From an uncultured Bacteroidota bacterium (GTDB taxonomy: Bacteria > Bacteroidota > Bacteroidia > Flavobacteriales_F > PHOS-HE28): a stretch of 64,000 bases of DNA. Positions within the stretch are counted from its first letter, which is position 1. Every line of letters starts with the position of its first letter. Below are positions 7,921 through 16,738 of the stretch, piece after piece. The stretch lies in the NCBI GenBank assembly GCA_902826215.1, contig CADEDY010000001.1, positions 124,001 through 188,000 on the forward strand, given 5' to 3'. Under the pieces are notes generated by a model that was not told the origin of the DNA, did not search any database, and was given only the letters and a program-made list of their open reading frames with translations. The position numbers and the translations under genes were made by a program.

Positions 7921-10623
7921 TCAAAGAGCTTTCTCAACTGCCTGCCCACGCATCGCCTTTCGCGCAGCGCTTAGGAAGTAGCGATAGGTCGCCTCTTGCG
8001 AACGACCATCTCGCACACGCGGCTTCTTTGATCGATAGGGATTGGATTGGGTGGTGTCGATGATGCGTGCTTTTGGTCCATCGTTCCACTGGATCTCCAA
8101 GAGGTCGAGGACCATCCGTTGAAGATCCGGGTCGTTCACAGGGAATGCCACCTCGACCCGACGATCCAGATTGCGGCCCATCCAGTCGGCAGAGGAAAGC
8201 AGTATCAATTGCCGCCCGCCATTGTGGAACATGTACACTCTGGTATGTTCCAGATAACGGTCCACGATACTGATCGCCTCGATGTTCGCACTCGATCCCG
8301 GAACCTGAGGGACCAAGCAGCAAATACCGCGAACAATGAGCCGAACGTTCACACCAGCGCTGCTCGCGTCGTACAACTTCCGGATGAGCGAGCGGTCCTC
8401 CAAACTGTTCAGCTTCAGCAGGATCTCCGCTCGCTGTCCCAGTAAGGCACGCTCTATTTCTTTATCGATCAAGGCCTCCAACCGATCGCGTAAGCTGAGC
8501 GGTGCCATGAGAAGTTGCGTCAGCGCTGGTCGGTGGTCGCGGTCCTTCAGGTGTGCGAATACCTCGGCCACTTCCTTGGTCAACGCAGGTTTGGCGGTGA
8601 GCAGGGCCATGTCGGCATAGATACGTGAGGTGCGCTCGTTGAAGTTGCCTGTTCCCAGGTAGGCGTACCGCACGTTTCGACCTTTCTCGCGGCGTTCCAC
8701 CATGCACAACTTGCAATGTACCTTCAAGTGCTCGTAACTGTATAGTACGGTCGCACCGGCCTTCTCCAAGGTCTCTCCCCAGAACAGGTTCATGCGTTCA
8801 TCGAAGCGCGCCTGAACTTCTACGAAAACGGTCACCTTCTTTCCGCGAGCCAAGGCCTCCAACAACGCACCACAGACAGCGGAATCATCCGCAACGCGGT
8901 ACAAGGTCATCGCAATGTGCTGCACCTGTCGATCCCTTGCCGCCTTCTCCAACCAACGCACCACGTTCTCGAAGTCATGATAAGGAAAGTGCCAGAGGAT
9001 ATCCGCTTTCTTCAGCGCGTTGAACGTATCGTTCCCCTCTTTGCTTGTCGGGTGTTTCGCTGGCGGCCAGGCCGGTTCCCGTAGATCCGCATGACCCTTC
9101 ACCGGCAGCTTCATCAGGTCGCTGAAGTTGTGATAACGACCGCCAGGGACCAGATCGGGCTTGGTGAGTCCGAGCAAGTTGCGCAATGCCCGTAGGGTCT
9201 TTTGCGGCATCGTAGCGTCGTATAGGAATCGCGAAGGCACACCGGTGGTTCGTTTCCGAAGGCTCTTGCGCACCTTCTCCTTCATGTTCCCGACGAACTC
9301 CTCATCGAGGTACAATTCCGCATCGCGGGATAGTTTGATCGAGTGGCACTCGGTCACCTTGTATCCGGTGAACAATTGTGCAAGACAAACCCGCATCACA
9401 TCATCGAGGTACATCACGCTGGTTATTCCCTTGGGAGACGGGAGCAGGACGAAGCGTCCAAGAACGTCACTCGGGATATTCACCAGGACCATCTGCTCCT
9501 TCACGCGGGACTTCTGTTCCAAGCGACAAGCGAAGTAGAGTTTCCGGTCCTCGATGAACAAGGCGTTTCCAAGCCGAACAGCGGCGGTATGGACAAGTGG
9601 TGCAACATGTTCACTGAAATACGACCGTACGAATGCACGCTGTTTGGCGGTCAATTGTTTTTCATTGACGATGTGGATCCCCGCATCGGCAAGTGCAGGT
9701 AGGAGTTTTCCCCGATATATTTTTCCGAACTGCTGTTGCTGAAGAAGTGCTTTTTGATTGATCCGCTCCACCCGTTTTTCCGGCGTCACTTCCAGTGCCG
9801 TGCGGTCCACCTTTCGCAATTTGGTGAGACTGCGCAGAGAAGCCACGCGCACACGATAGAATTCATCCAGATTGCTGGAATAGATCGCTAGGAATTTGAT
9901 GCGTTCCAAAAGGGGGACGGAGGGGTCCTTGGCTTCTTGCAGAACCCGGTCATTGAAGGAGAGCCAACTGAGGTCCCGGTCGAAATACCGATCATTCGGT
10001 CGCAGCAGCGGGGCGCGTTCCTTCTTCGGAATGGAAGTGCGTTCCTCCAACGTCTTCAGGTTGATCCCCTTTTGGCGTCCGTAGCGATCACGGGCATAAC
10101 GCGTGAAGAAGACATGGCCGTTCAAGTAGGCGAGGTTCTCGGCCAGCCAGTTGGTTGGGCTGATCCGTTTGCCGTGCACGGTCTCCAGTTCTTTTCGCAA
10201 AAGCTCGCTCTTCTCGATGAAGTCCACTTGACCAGCTTTGGCAGAATCGGCATCGCGCAGGACTTTCTGCAGTGTCGTTCGCGGCACCGCTCCCATGCGC
10301 GTGGACAGGATCATGCCACGTATGCGAGAGATATCGGCTTTCGGTAAGCGCGTGGTGCCCAAGAAGGCGGTGGCCAATTCGGCGCTTTTTGCTTCATGCC
10401 CGGCATAGGCCAAGGCATATCCGGTATCGTGGAATAGACCAGCTAGCTCAAGCAACACGAGATCCTGTGGTGCTAGTTTCATGGCTTGGCCGATCGCTTT
10501 CGCCGTGCGGGTCACGGTAAGCGTGTGCTCCAGATCGTGGAAGCACATGGTCTTGGGTATCCTGCGGGCGAACCAACGACGAACGTGCAAGCGTGCGCGT
10601 TCCAACAGGGCTTCGTGGCTCAT
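7921..10623 (-). CDS. ppk1: HD-domain / polyphosphate kinase 1 fusion
   Basis: A 900-residue protein. Residues about 20-170 are an HD phosphohydrolase domain: CFHDLEHT (His29-Asp30, His33), LFHDTGYA (His65-Asp66) and RDAD (Asp124) supply the metal-binding set. From about residue 210 it is a typical PPK1: RYFDRDLSWLSFNDRVL opens the N-domain, HCKLCMVER holds the phosphorylated histidine with YLGTGNFNERTSRIY after it, and VYMFHNGGRQL contains the second active-site histidine. PPK1 reversibly makes polyphosphate from ATP. A typical PPK1 has about 690 residues, so the extra 200 are the HD unit. What the HD domain hydrolyses is not shown; a nucleotide or (p)ppGpp-like signal is possible. The ATG is 7 nt after a TAACTTCG element. 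The gene is divergent from the SiaB-like gene with an 80 bp shared promoter region. Confidence 0.9.
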   Translation of the reverse strand: MSHEALLERARLHVRRWFARRIPKTMCFHDLEHTLTVTRTAKAIGQAMKLAPQDLVLLELAGLFHDTGYALAYAGHEAKSAELATAFLGTTRLPKADISRIRGMILSTRMGAVPRTTLQKVLRDADSAKAGQVDFIEKSELLRKELETVHGKRISPTNWLAENLAYLNGHVFFTRYARDRYGRQKGINLKTLEERTSIPKKERAPLLRPNDRYFDRDLSWLSFNDRVLQEAKDPSVPLLERIKFLAIYSSNLDEFYRVRVASLRSLTKLRKVDRTALEVTPEKRVERINQKALLQQQQFGKIYRGKLLPALADAGIHIVNEKQLTAKQRAFVRSYFSEHVAPLVHTAAVRLGNALFIEDRKLYFACRLEQKSRVKEQMVLVNIPSDVLGRFVLLPSPKGITSVMYLDDVMRVCLAQLFTGYKVTECHSIKLSRDAELYLDEEFVGNMKEKVRKSLRKRTTGVPSRFLYDATMPQKTLRALRNLLGLTKPDLVPGGRYHNFSDLMKLPVKGHADLREPAWPPAKHPTSKEGNDTFNALKKADILWHFPYHDFENVVRWLEKAARDRQVQHIAMTLYRVADDSAVCGALLEALARGKKVTVFVEVQARFDERMNLFWGETLEKAGATVLYSYEHLKVHCKLCMVERREKGRNVRYAYLGTGNFNERTSRIYADMALLTAKPALTKEVAEVFAHLKDRDHRPALTQLLMAPLSLRDRLEALIDKEIERALLGQRAEILLKLNSLEDRSLIRKLYDASSAGVNVRLIVRGICCLVPQVPGSSANIEAISIVDRYLEHTRVYMFHNGGRQLILLSSADWMGRNLDRRVEVAFPVNDPDLQRMVLDLLEIQWNDGPKARIIDTTQSNPYRSKKPRVRDGRSQEATYRYFLSAARKAMRGQAVEKAL

Positions 10624-10630
10624 GGGGTGG

Positions 10631-10638
10631 CGAAGTTA
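10631..10638 (-). promoter_or_regulatory. -7 promoter element of HD-ppk1
   Basis: TAACTTCG on the minus strand, 7 nt before the ATG at 10623, fits TAnnTTYG. The spacing predicts an almost leaderless transcript. Confidence 0.5.
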
Positions 10639-10677
10639 GAAGGGCCGTGTTACTCGCTCGGCACGGAGATGGGCTTC

Positions 10678-10685
10678 TATCTTTG
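10678..10685 (+). promoter_or_regulatory. -7 promoter element of the SiaB-like gene
   Basis: TATCTTTG is an exact match to TAnnTTTG, 18 nt before ATG 10704. It forms a back-to-back pair with the HD-ppk1 promoter 40 bp away. Confidence 0.6.
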
Positions 10686-10703
10686 GCCGTGCCACCTTAC
10701 GGA

Positions 10704-11768
10704 ATGGACAGAACCACCGCACTCGCGCTCTATCGAACATTCGCGGGTGATCGGGCAACGTTCCTTTATAGCGGTAGGTTCCAAGACGAACATACGGCTC
10801 GACTGATCGCCTTGGGAGAGGAGTTCTTGGAGCACGAGGACACGGATAAGGCGGTCCGGGGAAAACTGGCTTTCATCATGGTGGAAGCCTACCAGAACAT
10901 CATTCGTCATAGAGCGGCATTGCCGATCGACCAGCAAGAAGGTAATGGGCGCAGTTTCTTCATGCTTCGCAGTGACCCGTCGCGGCACGAAGTCAGTTCC
11001 GTCAATCCCGTCACCAGAGTTGATGCAGCCAATTTGAGTGACGGCCTTCTCCGCTTGGAAGCCTCCGATCAAAAGGAGAAGAAGCAGATGTTCCTCGCTA
11101 GTTTGCAGCGCGCCGAGCGGACCGAACGAGGAGGTGCCGGATTGGGGTTGATCGAAATTGCAAGGCGCTCGGGTCATGGCTTGCGTCACGGCTTCCGGCC
11201 CTTGGGCGCGGATCATCAATTATTCGCCTTTCAAGCTTTGGTAGGTCGAAAAGCAACCTGGTGTGGCACCTTGGGTCAGGTGTTCGAGTTGCACCGGGTT
11301 GTAGCCCAATATGGCCTCTCCGTCATTTGCAGAGGGCATCTGTCGACCGGCGAGCAAGAGGTGATCCTTCGGATGATCGAACGTGATCTGGATAGTGAGA
11401 GCGGAGGTCCCGATCCGAGGACGCGCACCTATTTGGCAGCGATGGAAATGTTGCATGGTCTTGGTGCGGTGGGTGAGGGACCGATGGTGACGTTGGGGCG
11501 TTCGGGGAATGCAATGCACATTGTGATCACAGCGCAGCTCGGCCCCGTGGCGAAGGCGCGGATCGAGGAGGCTGTATCCACAGCGAATGCACTGGACGCT
11601 GGAGGGTTGCAACGTCGGTATCGCGACATCCTGCTCGGTCGTGGCGAGCACGTGGATACGGTTCATTTGGGTTTGATCGAGCTTGCGCGGAAGAGCATCG
11701 TTCCCTTGCGGTTGGATATGTCGGAGGCACAGGGTGGGCACTTCATGGTATTGCACGCGACCGTTTGA
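10704..11768 (+). CDS. Protein with two tandem SiaB-like (DUF6272) ATPase domains
   Basis: A 354-residue protein. ATG 10704 is preferred because the TATCTTTG promoter sits just upstream and the family begins near FLYSGRFQDE. Residues 1-175 resemble the SiaB family of HATPase-type protein kinases: a strand with YSGRFQDEHT, the helix LAFIMVEAYQNIIRH that supplies the Asn ATP-lid residue, and GGAGLGLIEIARRS as the glycine-rich loop. Residues about 185-354 repeat the same order (VICRGHLSTGEQ, then AAMEMLHGLGAVGEG, then VHLGLIELARKS), but the Asn and glycine-loop positions are changed, so the second copy may not bind ATP. SiaB acts on the anti-anti-sigma-like partner SiaC in Pseudomonas; no SiaC is seen here. 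Divergence from HD-ppk1 hints at a shared stress or nucleotide signalling role. Confidence 0.75.
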   Translation: MDRTTALALYRTFAGDRATFLYSGRFQDEHTARLIALGEEFLEHEDTDKAVRGKLAFIMVEAYQNIIRHRAALPIDQQEGNGRSFFMLRSDPSRHEVSSVNPVTRVDAANLSDGLLRLEASDQKEKKQMFLASLQRAERTERGGAGLGLIEIARRSGHGLRHGFRPLGADHQLFAFQALVGRKATWCGTLGQVFELHRVVAQYGLSVICRGHLSTGEQEVILRMIERDLDSESGGPDPRTRTYLAAMEMLHGLGAVGEGPMVTLGRSGNAMHIVITAQLGPVAKARIEEAVSTANALDAGGLQRRYRDILLGRGEHVDTVHLGLIELARKSIVPLRLDMSEAQGGHFMVLHATV

Positions 11769-11989: not shown

Positions 11990-13432
11990 TCAGAGCTTGA
12001 GACAAACGTTCTTCGCTTCGGTGAAGAAACGCAGAGCATCCACACCTCCTTCGCGACCAACACCACTTTGCTTGACCCCACCGAAGGGCGTGCGCAGGTC
12101 GCGAATCATCCAGCAGTTCACCCAAACGATACCTGCGTTGAGGTCTCTGGCCACGCGCAAGGCTCGCTGCCCATCCCGGGTCCAGATCACACTTGCTAGT
12201 CCATAGGGCGTGGCGTTCGCCAGTGCCACGGCATCCGCTTCGCCATCAAAGGGCTGAAGTGTCACCACGGGTCCGAAGATCTCCTCTTGATTCGTGCGAC
12301 AGACCGGCCCGAGGCCCTCGATCACAGTTGGTGCTATGTACCAGCCTTCTTGCAACATTCCATCGAGCTGGACGCGTTCGCCTCCGCAGAGAACGGTTCC
12401 ACCTTCGCTTCGCGCTAGTTCGATGTAGCCGAGCACGTTCTCCATGTGGCCCTTGGACACCACGGCGCCAAGATCAGTCGTTGGGTCGGAAGGATCACCG
12501 ACCTTCAACGCTTTCACGCGCTCAACGAACGCATCGCGGAATTTGGTGTAGATCGATCGCTCCACTAGGATACGTGAACCGCACAAACAGATCTGGCCCT
12601 GATTCGTGAAGCTGCTGCGCACGGTGGTCTTCAGCATTTCATCGAAGTCGCAATCAGCAAAGACGAGTACTGGGTTCTTGCCACCCAGCTCCAAGCTCAA
12701 CTTCTTGAACATCGGCGCAGCCACACGGGCGATCTCGGCGCCGGTGCGTGTGCCACCGGTGAAGGAAATGGCGGGCAATCGCGGATGTGCCGTGATCGCG
12801 GCACCCACCTTCGGACCCAGTCCATGTATGATGTTGAGCACACCCGATGGTATGCCTGCTTTTTCGCACAAGGTGCTCAAGCGGAATGCGGTCAGCGGTG
12901 TCACTTCGCTGGGCTTGGCCACCACGCAGTTCCCGGCCGCCAATGCTGGCGCGATCTTCCATGTGAACAAATACAACGGAAGGTTCCACGGACTGATGCA
13001 GCCCACTACGCCGATCGGTTGGCGATCCGTGTAGTTCACGGCTACGTCATCCATCAAGTGCGCTTCGCTCGGGAAGTGCAGGATCGCGGTTGCGAAGAAC
13101 CGGAAGTTCGCGATCGCCCGAGGGATATCGACCCGACGAGCAAGGGAAAGAGGTTTACCATTGTCCCGCGATTCATCGTGTGCAAAGCCCTCGAGGTCAT
13201 CCTCGATGGCCTGCGCCAAGCGCAATAACACCGTACTTCGGCCGTCGCGCCCTAGGGCGTTCCACGCCGGGAAGGCCCGATGTGCTGCCTGAACGGCCAG
13301 TTCCACATCGCATTGGTCGGAGTCCGGAAGCTCTCCGTAGACCGTACCGGTAGCGGGTGCATGCACATCCAGCCAACCGCCACCCAAAGCGGGTCGCAAT
13401 TCGCCATCGATCAGGTTCAGCAATTGTTCCAT
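11990..13432 (-). CDS. Aldehyde dehydrogenase, probably aminomuconate-semialdehyde dehydrogenase
   Basis: A 480-residue NAD(P)-dependent aldehyde dehydrogenase of normal length. Visible landmarks are SPWNLPLYL (Asn150), the cofactor strand VAKPSEVTPL, FTGGTRTG, the general base in SLELGGKNP (Glu248), and the nucleophile in NQGQICLCGS (Cys282). The GQxCLC context and overall pattern fit 2-hydroxymuconic/2-aminomuconic semialdehyde dehydrogenases. This fits the 3-hydroxyanthranilate dioxygenase and ACMS decarboxylase genes 10-11 kb away, whose product it would oxidise to 2-aminomuconate. The genes are not in one operon, so the substrate is inferred. The start ATG 13432 follows a TAACTTCG element by 13 nt. 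Confidence 0.85.
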   Translation of the reverse strand: MEQLLNLIDGELRPALGGGWLDVHAPATGTVYGELPDSDQCDVELAVQAAHRAFPAWNALGRDGRSTVLLRLAQAIEDDLEGFAHDESRDNGKPLSLARRVDIPRAIANFRFFATAILHFPSEAHLMDDVAVNYTDRQPIGVVGCISPWNLPLYLFTWKIAPALAAGNCVVAKPSEVTPLTAFRLSTLCEKAGIPSGVLNIIHGLGPKVGAAITAHPRLPAISFTGGTRTGAEIARVAAPMFKKLSLELGGKNPVLVFADCDFDEMLKTTVRSSFTNQGQICLCGSRILVERSIYTKFRDAFVERVKALKVGDPSDPTTDLGAVVSKGHMENVLGYIELARSEGGTVLCGGERVQLDGMLQEGWYIAPTVIEGLGPVCRTNQEEIFGPVVTLQPFDGEADAVALANATPYGLASVIWTRDGQRALRVARDLNAGIVWVNCWMIRDLRTPFGGVKQSGVGREGGVDALRFFTEAKNVCLKL

Positions 13433-13445
13433 GGTGAAGCGACGC

Positions 13446-13453
13446 CGAAGTTA
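13446..13453 (-). promoter_or_regulatory. -7 promoter element of the aldehyde dehydrogenase
   Basis: TAACTTCG on the minus strand, identical to the HD-ppk1 element, 13 nt before ATG 13432. Confidence 0.45.
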
Positions 13454-13492
13454 GTCTCCCACGAGCGGCCACGGAGCGGGACTGCCACCGGG

Positions 13493-13526
13493 AAAATCGA
13501 AAGGCCCCCACTTGCGTGAGAGCCTT
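13493..13526 (-). terminator. Intrinsic terminator of the candidate small RNA
   Basis: An 11 bp stem, aaggctctcac pairing with gtgggggcctt (two G-U pairs), is capped by a GCAA tetraloop and followed by tcgatttt on the minus strand. It precedes the aldehyde dehydrogenase promoter, where no protein gene ends, so it must belong to an intergenic transcript. Confidence 0.75.
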
Positions 13527-13625
13527 CCGACCCCATTGTTGCGCTGTTCGGGAACCAAAACCCACCCCGAGACAGGCGTCTCTCATTGATGGACCGTACG
13601 ATCGACGGGTTCCATCTTCCTTGCG
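13493..13625 (-). ncRNA. Candidate intergenic small RNA of about 130 nt
   Basis: On the minus strand of the 301 bp gap there is a promoter (TTG at 13656-13654, 17 nt spacer, AATCTTTG at 13636-13629) and, 100-130 nt later, a strong intrinsic terminator. Between them the transcript folds into a hairpin with arms gatgga and tccatc around 13588-13616 and a gagac/gtctc hairpin near 13571-13584. A short frame (MRDACLGVGFGSRTAQQ) crosses the interval, but it continues through the terminator stem, so it looks incidental. The family is unknown; a Bacteroidota 6S-like or regulatory RNA is possible. Confidence 0.5.
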
Positions 13626-13628
13626 CTG

Positions 13629-13656
13629 CAAAGATTGCTCTGTTCCATCGGGTCAA
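13629..13656 (-). promoter_or_regulatory. Promoter of the candidate small RNA
   Basis: cacTTG and AATCTTTGC are separated by 17 nt, close to the Bacteroidota TTG-N17-19-TAnnTTTG arrangement, with one change in the first base of the -7 box. Confidence 0.5.
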
Positions 13657-13678
13657 GTGTTGATCAACAGCGAACGAA

Positions 13679-13694
13679 CGTTAAAGACCGTTAA
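13679..13694 (+). promoter_or_regulatory. Direct repeat CGTTAA x2, possible response-regulator site
   Basis: CGTTAA occurs at 13679-13684 and 13689-13694, one helical turn apart (10 bp). The pair ends 28 bp before the -7 element of the histidine kinase gene. This phasing is typical for OmpR-type dimers, so autoregulation by the neighbouring regulator is a reasonable guess. Confidence 0.45.
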
Positions 13695-13721
13695 GTGCAG
13701 GTCGGAGCGGAAGGTGACCAA

Positions 13722-13729
13722 TAGTTTCG
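13722..13729 (+). promoter_or_regulatory. -7 promoter element of the histidine kinase gene
   Basis: TAGTTTCG fits TAnnTTYG and ends 4 nt before the GTG start at 13734, implying a leaderless mRNA. Confidence 0.5.
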
Positions 13730-13733
13730 GTGC

Positions 13734-15302
13734 GTGGAAAAGCGCTGGATCACGGGTCTTTTGATAGCCATCAGTGTGGCACTGGTGGGGCTGATGGCGA
13801 TCCAAGTGAAATGGATGCGCGATACCGTGGATCTGCGCGAGGTGCAGTTCCACCGCAGCGTGGACAATGCGCTCTTCGCCGTTTGCGACCGGTTGGAGCA
13901 ATTGGAGCGTATGCAGGTATTGAAAGAGCATGCCGCAGGACGGAAGTTGTTGGGGAAGTTGGATGCCTTGCGCAGCATGCGCGCGGCACAGGAGCCGGAG
14001 ATCGCGCCGGAAGCAGAAGAAGGGTCGACCCAAGCGGAGGTCGATACGAATGACCTGATCGACACGCCAGAACCACCTTCGCCGCCGAGGCCCTTGGAAC
14101 CTTTCGATCCATCCGATACCCTGGCCCTTCTTGGTGCGGGCTGGCAAGCCTTGGACGAAGAGCAAGAAGCGTTGGTCTCGGATCTGGTGCGCGGGATCAT
14201 GGCTTCGGAATTGTCGCGCGACATCCATGACCGCATCGATCCGGGAGTTCTTGACTCGCTACTTCGGGACGAGTTCAAAGCCAACGGTATTCCAGGTCCC
14301 ATGCACTACGCGGTATTGAAGGAAGGAGGAACTTCCGTGCTTGTTGGCAGAGGCGATCTGTCGGATACTTCCGCTACCGATCACGTTGGCTTCCGGGAGA
14401 AGTTGTTCCGGCATGATCTGGCCGGGCCCTCTTATTTTCTGGAGGTCCAAGTGGCGGGCCAGAAGCGCTTTCTCCTGCACGGCATGTGGCCCATGTTGTT
14501 GACCAGTGCTGTTTTCATGTGCATCATCGGGGTGGCTTTCCTCTTCACCATCCGGACGATCTTCCGACAGAAGCGTATCAGCGAGATCCGAAACGATCTC
14601 GTGAACAACCTAACGCACGAACTCAAGACACCGATCAGCACCATCGGCTTGGCATGCGAGGCGCTTACCGATCCTTCCATGCCGAAGACCGATGAGCAGG
14701 TGCGGAATTTCGTGAATATGATCCGCGACGAGAACAAACGGCTCGGCTCGCTGGTGGAGAACGTGTTGCAAAGCGCGGTGTTGGAAAGCGGCCACATGTT
14801 GCTGAAGCGCGTCGACCTGGATCTGCATGCGTTGGTCCATGATGTGGTGCGCAGCAGCGGTATCCAATTGACCCGGCGCAATGGTCGTATCGATCTGGAA
14901 CTGAATGCGGAGATCCACCGTGTGAACGGCGATCGCATCCACTTGACGAATCTCTTGTACAACCTCGTGGACAACGCCATCAAGTACGCCGAACAAGAGC
15001 CTCGCATCCGAATTGCGACCACGAGCAACGATGAGGGCGTGACCGTCAGCGTTACAGACAACGGTATCGGTATTGCAACCTCCGAGCAGCGCAAGGTCTT
15101 CGATCGCTTGTACCGCGTTCCGACCGGGAACATCCACAATGCCAAAGGCTTCGGCCTAGGCTTGAGCTATGTGCGCACCGTGGTGGAGCGGCATGGCGGC
15201 CGTATCAAATTGGAGAGCGTTCCCGGCAAGGGAAGTACCTTCCACATCTTCATTCCATTCGAACATGTCCGCACCGCTGAAGTTGCTGCTCGTAGAGGAT
15301 GA
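13734..15302 (+). CDS. Sensor histidine kinase (RprX-like)
   Basis: A 522-residue membrane histidine kinase starting at GTG. A first membrane segment (ITGLLIAISVALVGLMAI) is followed by a periplasmic sensor of about 230 residues with a Pro/Glu-rich stretch (PEPPSPPRPLEPF), then a second segment (MLLTSAVFMCIIGVAFLF). HisKA carries the phospho-acceptor in NLTHELKTP (His295). The ATPase has the N-box NLVDNAIKYA, G1 VTDNGIGI and G2 GFGLGLSYV. The order and overlap with an OmpR-type regulator match the Bacteroidota RprXY pair. The 3' end overlaps the regulator gene by 38 bp, so the two are probably co-translated. The signal is unknown. Confidence 0.9.
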   Translation: MEKRWITGLLIAISVALVGLMAIQVKWMRDTVDLREVQFHRSVDNALFAVCDRLEQLERMQVLKEHAAGRKLLGKLDALRSMRAAQEPEIAPEAEEGSTQAEVDTNDLIDTPEPPSPPRPLEPFDPSDTLALLGAGWQALDEEQEALVSDLVRGIMASELSRDIHDRIDPGVLDSLLRDEFKANGIPGPMHYAVLKEGGTSVLVGRGDLSDTSATDHVGFREKLFRHDLAGPSYFLEVQVAGQKRFLLHGMWPMLLTSAVFMCIIGVAFLFTIRTIFRQKRISEIRNDLVNNLTHELKTPISTIGLACEALTDPSMPKTDEQVRNFVNMIRDENKRLGSLVENVLQSAVLESGHMLLKRVDLDLHALVHDVVRSSGIQLTRRNGRIDLELNAEIHRVNGDRIHLTNLLYNLVDNAIKYAEQEPRIRIATTSNDEGVTVSVTDNGIGIATSEQRKVFDRLYRVPTGNIHNAKGFGLGLSYVRTVVERHGGRIKLESVPGKGSTFHIFIPFEHVRTAEVAARRG

Positions 15303-15978
15303 TGCCAACCTGGGCCGGTTGCTGCTGGAGTATCTGCAGGCCAAGGGATATGCAGCTGAGCTGCGCACCGACGGCCAGCAGGGCAAGGAAGCCTACCTCC
15401 AAGGTGGCTACGACCTTTTGATCCTTGATGTGATGATGCCGGTGAAGGACGGCTTCACGCTCGCACAGGAGATCCGGAAGAAGGATAGCACCACGCCCAT
15501 CATCTTCCTCTCGGCCAAGAGCATGAAGCAGGATACGATACAGGGCTTCCAGAGCGGCGCCGACGATTACATCACCAAGCCCTTCATCATGGAGGAGCTG
15601 TTGCTGCGCATCTCTGCTGTGCTGCGCCGCGCCAAAGGAGTAGAGCCCAAACCGGCCGAGCCGGAGGAGTATGTTGTGGGCGGGTCGCGCTTCGATCCAC
15701 GCAAGCAAGTGTTGCGCACCCCACTCGGCGAGCGCAAGCTCACCACCAAGGAATCCGAACTCCTTCGGCTCCTGTGCGCCAATCGAAATGAGGTCTTGGA
15801 GCGAAGCATCGCGCTGAACACGGTGTGGGGTAACGACAGCTATTTCAACGGACGCAGTATGGACGTGTACATCGCCAAATTGCGCAAGTACCTGCGCGAT
15901 GATCCATCGGTCGAGATCATCAATGTGCACGGCAAAGGCTTCCGACTGATCGCTGAAGAAGCACCCAAGGAACAATGA
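15265..15978 (+). CDS. OmpR-family response regulator (RprY-like)
   Basis: A 237-residue two-domain regulator. ATG 15265 gives the standard receiver start (MSAPLKLLLVEDDANLG). The acidic pocket is Glu11/Asp12/Asp13, the phosphorylated residue is Asp55 in LILDVMMPVKDG, with Ser/Thr in IIFLSAKS and the lysine in YITKPF. The C-terminal winged helix contains LTTKESELLRLLCANRNEVLER and SMDVYIAKLRKYL, the usual DNA-binding pattern. It partners with the kinase encoded immediately upstream and overlapping. The CGTTAA direct repeat before the kinase gene is a candidate binding site. Confidence 0.93.
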   Translation: MSAPLKLLLVEDDANLGRLLLEYLQAKGYAAELRTDGQQGKEAYLQGGYDLLILDVMMPVKDGFTLAQEIRKKDSTTPIIFLSAKSMKQDTIQGFQSGADDYITKPFIMEELLLRISAVLRRAKGVEPKPAEPEEYVVGGSRFDPRKQVLRTPLGERKLTTKESELLRLLCANRNEVLERSIALNTVWGNDSYFNGRSMDVYIAKLRKYLRDDPSVEIINVHGKGFRLIAEEAPKEQ

Positions 15979-16000: not shown

Positions 16001-16738
16001 TTGGAAATGCCGATCATGCGCAACAACCAACATTCCTGGCGCCAAGCCAGGGCGGCCATGGGCCAACGTCTTTTTCTCGGTGCTGTCGTAGCCGGGTCGC
16101 TTTCCTTGGTGGCTTTTGAGTGGCGGAGTACGGATATTCGGGAGCGTCCTAGCGATCCGTTCGAAGATGACCGTATTACGTTGGAACCACAGCTCATTGT
16201 CACCGTCGCAGCGCCTCCGACCAAGGCCCCGGAGCCATTGGTCCGAACATTGGGTCTGAATCCAGTTGCGACTCCTCAACCCACTGCGGATCCAGCTCCG
16301 GACCCCGGTCCCGATATGGGTGATCCTGTGGTTGACCCCGGTCCAGCACCGGACCCTTCACCTACTGCATCCGAAGGACCGTTTGAACCCCCAACAGGCT
16401 ACGTGCCAGGCCGTTCCATCAAACCACACTTCGAGCAATGTCTTCTCGAAGACCCCGAAGCCGTGGATCCCTGCACCGAGGAACGGATCCTTGCACATCT
16501 TCAACGGAAGTTCCGCATGCCGACCTCGGTATCGGGCAAAGTGCGTACGACGGTCACCTTCAGTGTGGAGGTGGATGGTACGATCGGTCGTGTTGTGTGC
16601 GCGCCGAGGGTGGACCCCGAAGTAGCCCGTGAAGTGGAACGCGTACTACGGTCCATGCCCCGTTTCATTCCTGGAAGTCAGGGTGGTGTCGCCGTGCCGG
16701 TGTACTATCAGATCCCATTGAGTCTGATGGTCAGTTAG
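16001..16738 (+). CDS. TonB-like energy transducer protein
   Basis: A 245-residue protein with a short cytoplasmic basic N-terminus, one membrane anchor (LFLGAVVAGSLSLVAF), a long Pro/Asp/Ala spacer (PDPGPDMGDPVVDPGPAPDP) and a C-terminal domain whose VRTTVTFSVEVDGTIG and VERVLRSMPRFIPG match the TonB C-terminal fold (a strand with V-DGxI, then a helix and MPxWxPG). Such proteins pass proton-motive energy from an ExbBD complex to outer-membrane receptors. No exbBD or receptor gene is adjacent. The start could also be Met6. It lies 22 bp after the response regulator gene and ends with a terminator, so it may be the third gene of that operon. Confidence 0.75.
   Translation: MEMPIMRNNQHSWRQARAAMGQRLFLGAVVAGSLSLVAFEWRSTDIRERPSDPFEDDRITLEPQLIVTVAAPPTKAPEPLVRTLGLNPVATPQPTADPAPDPGPDMGDPVVDPGPAPDPSPTASEGPFEPPTGYVPGRSIKPHFEQCLLEDPEAVDPCTEERILAHLQRKFRMPTSVSGKVRTTVTFSVEVDGTIGRVVCAPRVDPEVAREVERVLRSMPRFIPGSQGGVAVPVYYQIPLSLMVS

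Follow-up and report, generated by a model that had tools for sequence, protein, structure and literature searches.

A candidate small RNA gene divergent from an rprXY-like operon in one genus of uncultured Flavobacteriales, seemingly a remnant of a secreted-protein gene

In the window (the whole stretch of DNA analysed; 64,000 nt), the gap between an aldehyde dehydrogenase gene and an rprXY-like gene pair harbours a predicted small RNA on the minus strand. The genes and features of the locus are as follows.

11990–13432, minus strand: aldehyde dehydrogenase gene
13446–13453, minus strand: separate −7 box (TAACTTCG) of the aldehyde dehydrogenase gene, 3′ of the terminator
13493–13624, minus strand: predicted small RNA of ~132 nt, with its start taken from the promoter rule
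13494–13533, minus strand: intrinsic terminator hairpin with T-tract
13541–13577, minus strand: hairpin 2 (loop GGGTTTTGGTTCC), whose 5′ strand is positioned like the last open reading frame (ORF) codons of relatives
13588–13616, minus strand: hairpin 1, variable in sequence and weakly supported
13629–13636, minus strand: −7 promoter box (AATCTTTG) of the TAnnTTTG type
13658–13663, minus strand: third TTAAC box, degenerate in the focal genome (TCAACA), 31 nt before TTTG
13680–13684, minus strand: second TTAAC box, a putative RprY-like site
13690–13694, minus strand: first TTAAC box, a putative RprY-like site
13734–15302, plus strand: RprX-like histidine kinase gene, divergent from the RNA
15265–15978, plus strand: RprY-like response regulator gene (NF051850, 305 bits, under its cut-off of 370)

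The start of the RNA was set by the rule that TAnnTTTG occupies positions −12 to −5 (PMC9723704). Folding of 13624–13493 yielded −55.2 kcal mol−1 (z = −3.0; equalled by none of 200 shuffles), and the fold contained the two additional hairpins that a preliminary description of the locus had proposed. The terminator likewise agreed with that description, having an 11-bp stem, a GCAA loop and a T-tract on the minus strand (GGGGTCGGAAGGCTCTCAC-GCAA-GTGGGGGCCTTTCGATTTT, 13533–13494). As GGGG pairs with the T-tract, the stem can be extended to 18 pairs, and this extension into the T-tract is probably why the terminator was not listed by a simple terminator scan. With the terminator left out, the remaining body folded unexceptionally in most single genomes.

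A 6S-like RNA had been suggested, and its size and intergenic position are compatible with that identity. However, the Rfam covariance search returned nothing over the window at the gathering score and no family at E≤10; for 6S-Flavo (RF01685) in particular, no match was present in the window at the gathering score or in 13300–13800 at E≤10. Moreover, where a 6S RNA would form a single long hairpin opened by a central bubble, the fold here has three separate hairpins, which leaves a 6S RNA with practically no chance of being the right identity. BjrC68 (RF02353) was rejected at 21.5 bits, its gathering score being 39, and a literature search located no described RNA at this locus.

Conservation was assessed in 45 genomes of the genus, using a covariance model built from hairpin 2 and the terminator. 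Matches were found in 30 of the 45 genomes (E = 2e-21 to 9e-9; six outside the training set), with exactly one strong match per genome and every one beside the RprX-like kinase gene. Among the genomes sampled from 195 further genera of the class the model had no match at E≤1e-4, and an order-level search covered that genus alone. The unit can thus be regarded as a candidate new small-RNA family, which within the range of these searches is restricted to a single genus of uncultured Flavobacteriales.

Conservation of the stem pairs in close relatives, on which the small-RNA proposal had been staked, was borne out by compensatory changes in the terminator and, less strongly, in hairpin 2. In the terminator, 93% of the alignment cells are paired, eight of 18 pairs are changed on both sides and 32 double-change cells were counted against 8.6 after shuffling, a result as good being reached by none of 500 shuffles (as the sequences are related, such shuffle counts are not probabilities, for either hairpin). 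For hairpin 2, which was partly misaligned in the alignment given to RNAalifold (that run found the terminator alone), the pairs were first assigned manually on the sequences and counted afterwards, a choice that gives the structure an advantage over shifted versions of itself: 83% of cells are paired versus 75% in shuffles, the covariation score is 0.223 versus 0.139 (reached by none of 500), and four of eight pairs are changed on both sides (13 cells versus 6.0), while two of the five measures were attained by 36 and 59 of the 500 shuffles. Within the non-coding clade alone (see below), the pairing percentage of hairpin 2 exceeded that of all 1,000 shuffles, and its double-change count was attained by 34 of 1,000. 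Comparison of sequences therefore strongly supports a conserved RNA unit at this locus.

The promoter was originally described as TTG (13656–13654) followed, after 17 nt, by AATCTTTG. These elements are in place, but only the latter is a conserved one: the TTG at −33 varies among relatives, and the conserved upstream elements are instead the phased TTAAC boxes. TTTG or TTCG lies at a constant distance in nearly all genomes with the unit, and the consensus from 27 unit-bearing genomes reads cTTAACg-n4-TTTAACGttcgTT ... cTTAACA-n21-TAcgTTtG, with the positions of the TTAAC boxes and the −7 box constant to within one base in nearly all of them. The 31-nt spacing between box and TTTG is shared even by genomes whose kinases are only ~50% identical, and the third box is confined to unit-bearing genomes, being missing where the unit is absent.

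Since an RprY-like regulator is encoded 3′ of the kinase, binding of the TTAAC boxes by that regulator is the natural assumption, and by position it is their likely binder. In the focal genome the same box pair (TTAACn5TTAAC) occurs upstream of a MoxR-type operon and in the gap that separates an M23/LysM protein gene from a transglutaminase-like gene, sites that may be further targets of the RprY-like regulator. The box-pair count in this genome (four matches versus five for the reversed control pattern) is not above chance. In view of the position and phasing of the boxes, together with the two envelope-type promoters that carry box pairs, the RNA may be a member of the RprY regulon. The paper examined for an RprY binding motif gave none, and the locus possibly hints at a three-box motif for such a regulator.

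Most genomes of the genus preserve the order of the aldehyde dehydrogenase gene, this gap and the divergent kinase gene, and in most the unit lies upstream of the aldehyde dehydrogenase gene and runs in the same direction. This arrangement would suit a leader of that gene, either an attenuator or a riboswitch, with the hairpin as a regulated terminator. Yet that gene has its own −7 box beside its start codon, comparable boxes precede it in relatives, and the unit keeps near the kinase where the aldehyde dehydrogenase gene is at least 3 kb off (G010, G039 and G059); in relatives, furthermore, a full protein gene precedes the hairpin. A leader is accordingly very improbable. The kinase and aldehyde dehydrogenase genes each carry a −7 box beside the start codon, which suggests that both are transcribed independently of the RNA unit.

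That no protein gene ends at the terminator, as was initially noted, holds for the focal genome; it fails in 12 relatives, and probably also in G018, where a small secreted protein is encoded between that same promoter and the terminator. There, the ATG is mostly 14–19 nt past the predicted start (33 in G048), the N-terminus of the protein is signal-peptide-like, and the stop codon is 14–59 nt ahead of the conserved core. The longest version, of 246 residues in G021, carries a type IX sorting domain (TIGR04183, 31.7 bits; cut-off 23); a partial match below the cut-off is present in G015 and a likeness by eye in G007. The other proteins are of 64–78 residues, with an LVIE C-terminal end in several to most of them. 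Each genome with this family has a single copy, at this locus; none was recovered from the non-coding genomes of the focal clade or from those lacking the unit. After the signal peptide these proteins share a short FRY..K-like motif, and they evolve fast (dN/dS ~0.3–0.55 in three close pairs).

The locus therefore exists in three states among the 45 genomes: protein gene, non-coding RNA and absent. The focal clade comprises 18 short-form genomes, in which the reading frame is gone and the RNA elements are retained. In the kinase-regulator tree, the non-coding form makes up one clade (100/100), except for a member without the unit (G054), and the coding forms occupy the other main branches; in the aldehyde dehydrogenase tree, based on fewer sites than the kinase-regulator trees, the short form does not fall into a single group. 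A resemblance between the 5′ strand of hairpin 2 and the ORF end of coding relatives, at a matching offset, is seen in five genomes (G040, G041, G044, G060 and G012; P≤0.006), and in most other short-form genomes the best ORF-end match is at about the same offset, with the ORF-remnant score of the focal genome reaching P=0.05 only.

Because a hairpin that encodes nothing would be an unlikely source of a canonical sorting-domain end, the coding state was taken as ancestral; as the root of the genus is not fixed, the direction from coding to non-coding rests partly on this argument. The short RNA gene thus seems to be the remnant of a small secreted-protein gene, whose promoter and hairpins outlasted the reading frame. 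A small protein might also still be encoded by the focal form, given short frames of 10 residues in the focal genome, 18 in G044 and 17 in G009; no frame, however, is conserved in both position and sequence across the clade, which makes a short-peptide gene improbable.

The main rival to a regulatory small RNA is a relic retained because of its terminator: the protein gene would have decayed, and its promoter and terminator would persist either non-functionally or as an insulator that separates divergent or neighbouring transcription, the RNA having no targets in trans. Only the promoter and terminator are very strongly conserved while the body varies in sequence, and in two genomes, G010 and G039, the hairpin seems to coincide with the end of an opposite-strand gene; likewise, an 11-mer complementary to the hairpin-2 loop occurred outside the unit in just two of seven genomes, and no shared trans target emerged. 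Against such a relic, the non-coding clade retains hairpin-2 pairing, the hairpin-2 loop and the GCAACAAGG linker are conserved, and the predicted RNA length is 136–141 nt in 12 of 17 short-form genomes in spite of their sequence divergence. On this evidence a relic is rather unlikely, though it carries appreciable weight.

Three features expected of an independent small-RNA gene are found here: a promoter of its own that is conserved in the sequences of relatives, an intrinsic terminator with conserved pairing, and the lack of a reading frame conserved across the focal clade. The preliminary proposal of a small or regulatory RNA thus finds good comparative support as to a conserved small-RNA gene and none as to 6S; the coding origin and the TTAAC boxes had not been foreseen. 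Our favoured reading, which we consider somewhat more likely than not, is a small RNA gene linked to a two-component system, divergent from the rprXY-like operon and descended from the mRNA of a secreted protein. In this scheme, the RprY-like regulator would bind the TTAAC boxes and tune the RNA to the state of the envelope; transcription would begin near 13624 and end at the terminator hairpin; and the ~132-nt RNA, derived from both ends of an mRNA whose coding middle was lost, may base-pair via the hairpin-2 loop (GGGUUUUGGUUCC) or the linker with envelope or secretion mRNAs.

The fuller evolutionary account is more tentative, and we place it slightly on the doubtful side of even: a regulatory RNA would have arisen from a secreted-protein gene that included a type IX sorting domain, the coding part being lost and the promoter, boxes, terminator and partly codon-derived hairpin being selected within an RprXY-type system. 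The origin of new bacterial small RNAs is, to our knowledge, little documented; if this account is true, intermediate stages of such an origin are still visible in living relatives. The three states of the locus, with their fixed promoter geometry, make the passage from mRNA to regulatory RNA traceable and testable.

In enterobacteria, CpxQ, OmrA/B and MicA are small RNAs under envelope two-component systems or stress sigma factors. The RNA here is similar in being probably controlled by an envelope-stress regulator, yet it differs in phylum and sequence and in being divergent from the kinase gene itself, and the comparison does not extend to a chaperone link or a target. Regulated RNAs of the SgrS/SgrT type possess a small coding frame in some species and lack it in others. 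The present locus also occurs with and without a small protein frame; unlike in SgrS/SgrT, however, a whole secreted-protein frame was lost, and one strand of a hairpin is similar to the final codons of that frame. In Flavobacterium psychrophilum, Rfp18, which affects protease expression, and other independent transcripts, some with strong predicted secondary structure, have been described, and the main promoters of that group are of the TAnnTTTG type (PMC9723704). Like these, the RNA here would be an independent small RNA of Flavobacteriales from the group with TAnnTTTG promoters, though they are known by expression and it is predicted from sequence.

The locus possibly represents a small-RNA arm of an RprXY-type system in a wastewater-associated lineage. 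Several other features were observed. Following rprY, the frame at 16001–16735 (plus strand) appears TonB-type-like by eye and has no match in Pfam or NCBIfam. RprX genes of other Bacteroidota lineages were found in public records titled Chryseobacterium gleum and Candidatus Saccharibacteria, which are probably contaminated or mislabelled bins. On the far side of the aldehyde dehydrogenase gene, a DUF6272 protein gene (10593–11768, plus strand) is syntenic in most of the genus, and its listed start overlaps the 5′ end of an opposite-strand gene (7921–10623, minus strand) that encodes a polyphosphate kinase 1 fused in-frame to an N-terminal HD domain (900 residues). Several public relatives of the bacterial lineage with this fused kinase are from activated sludge.
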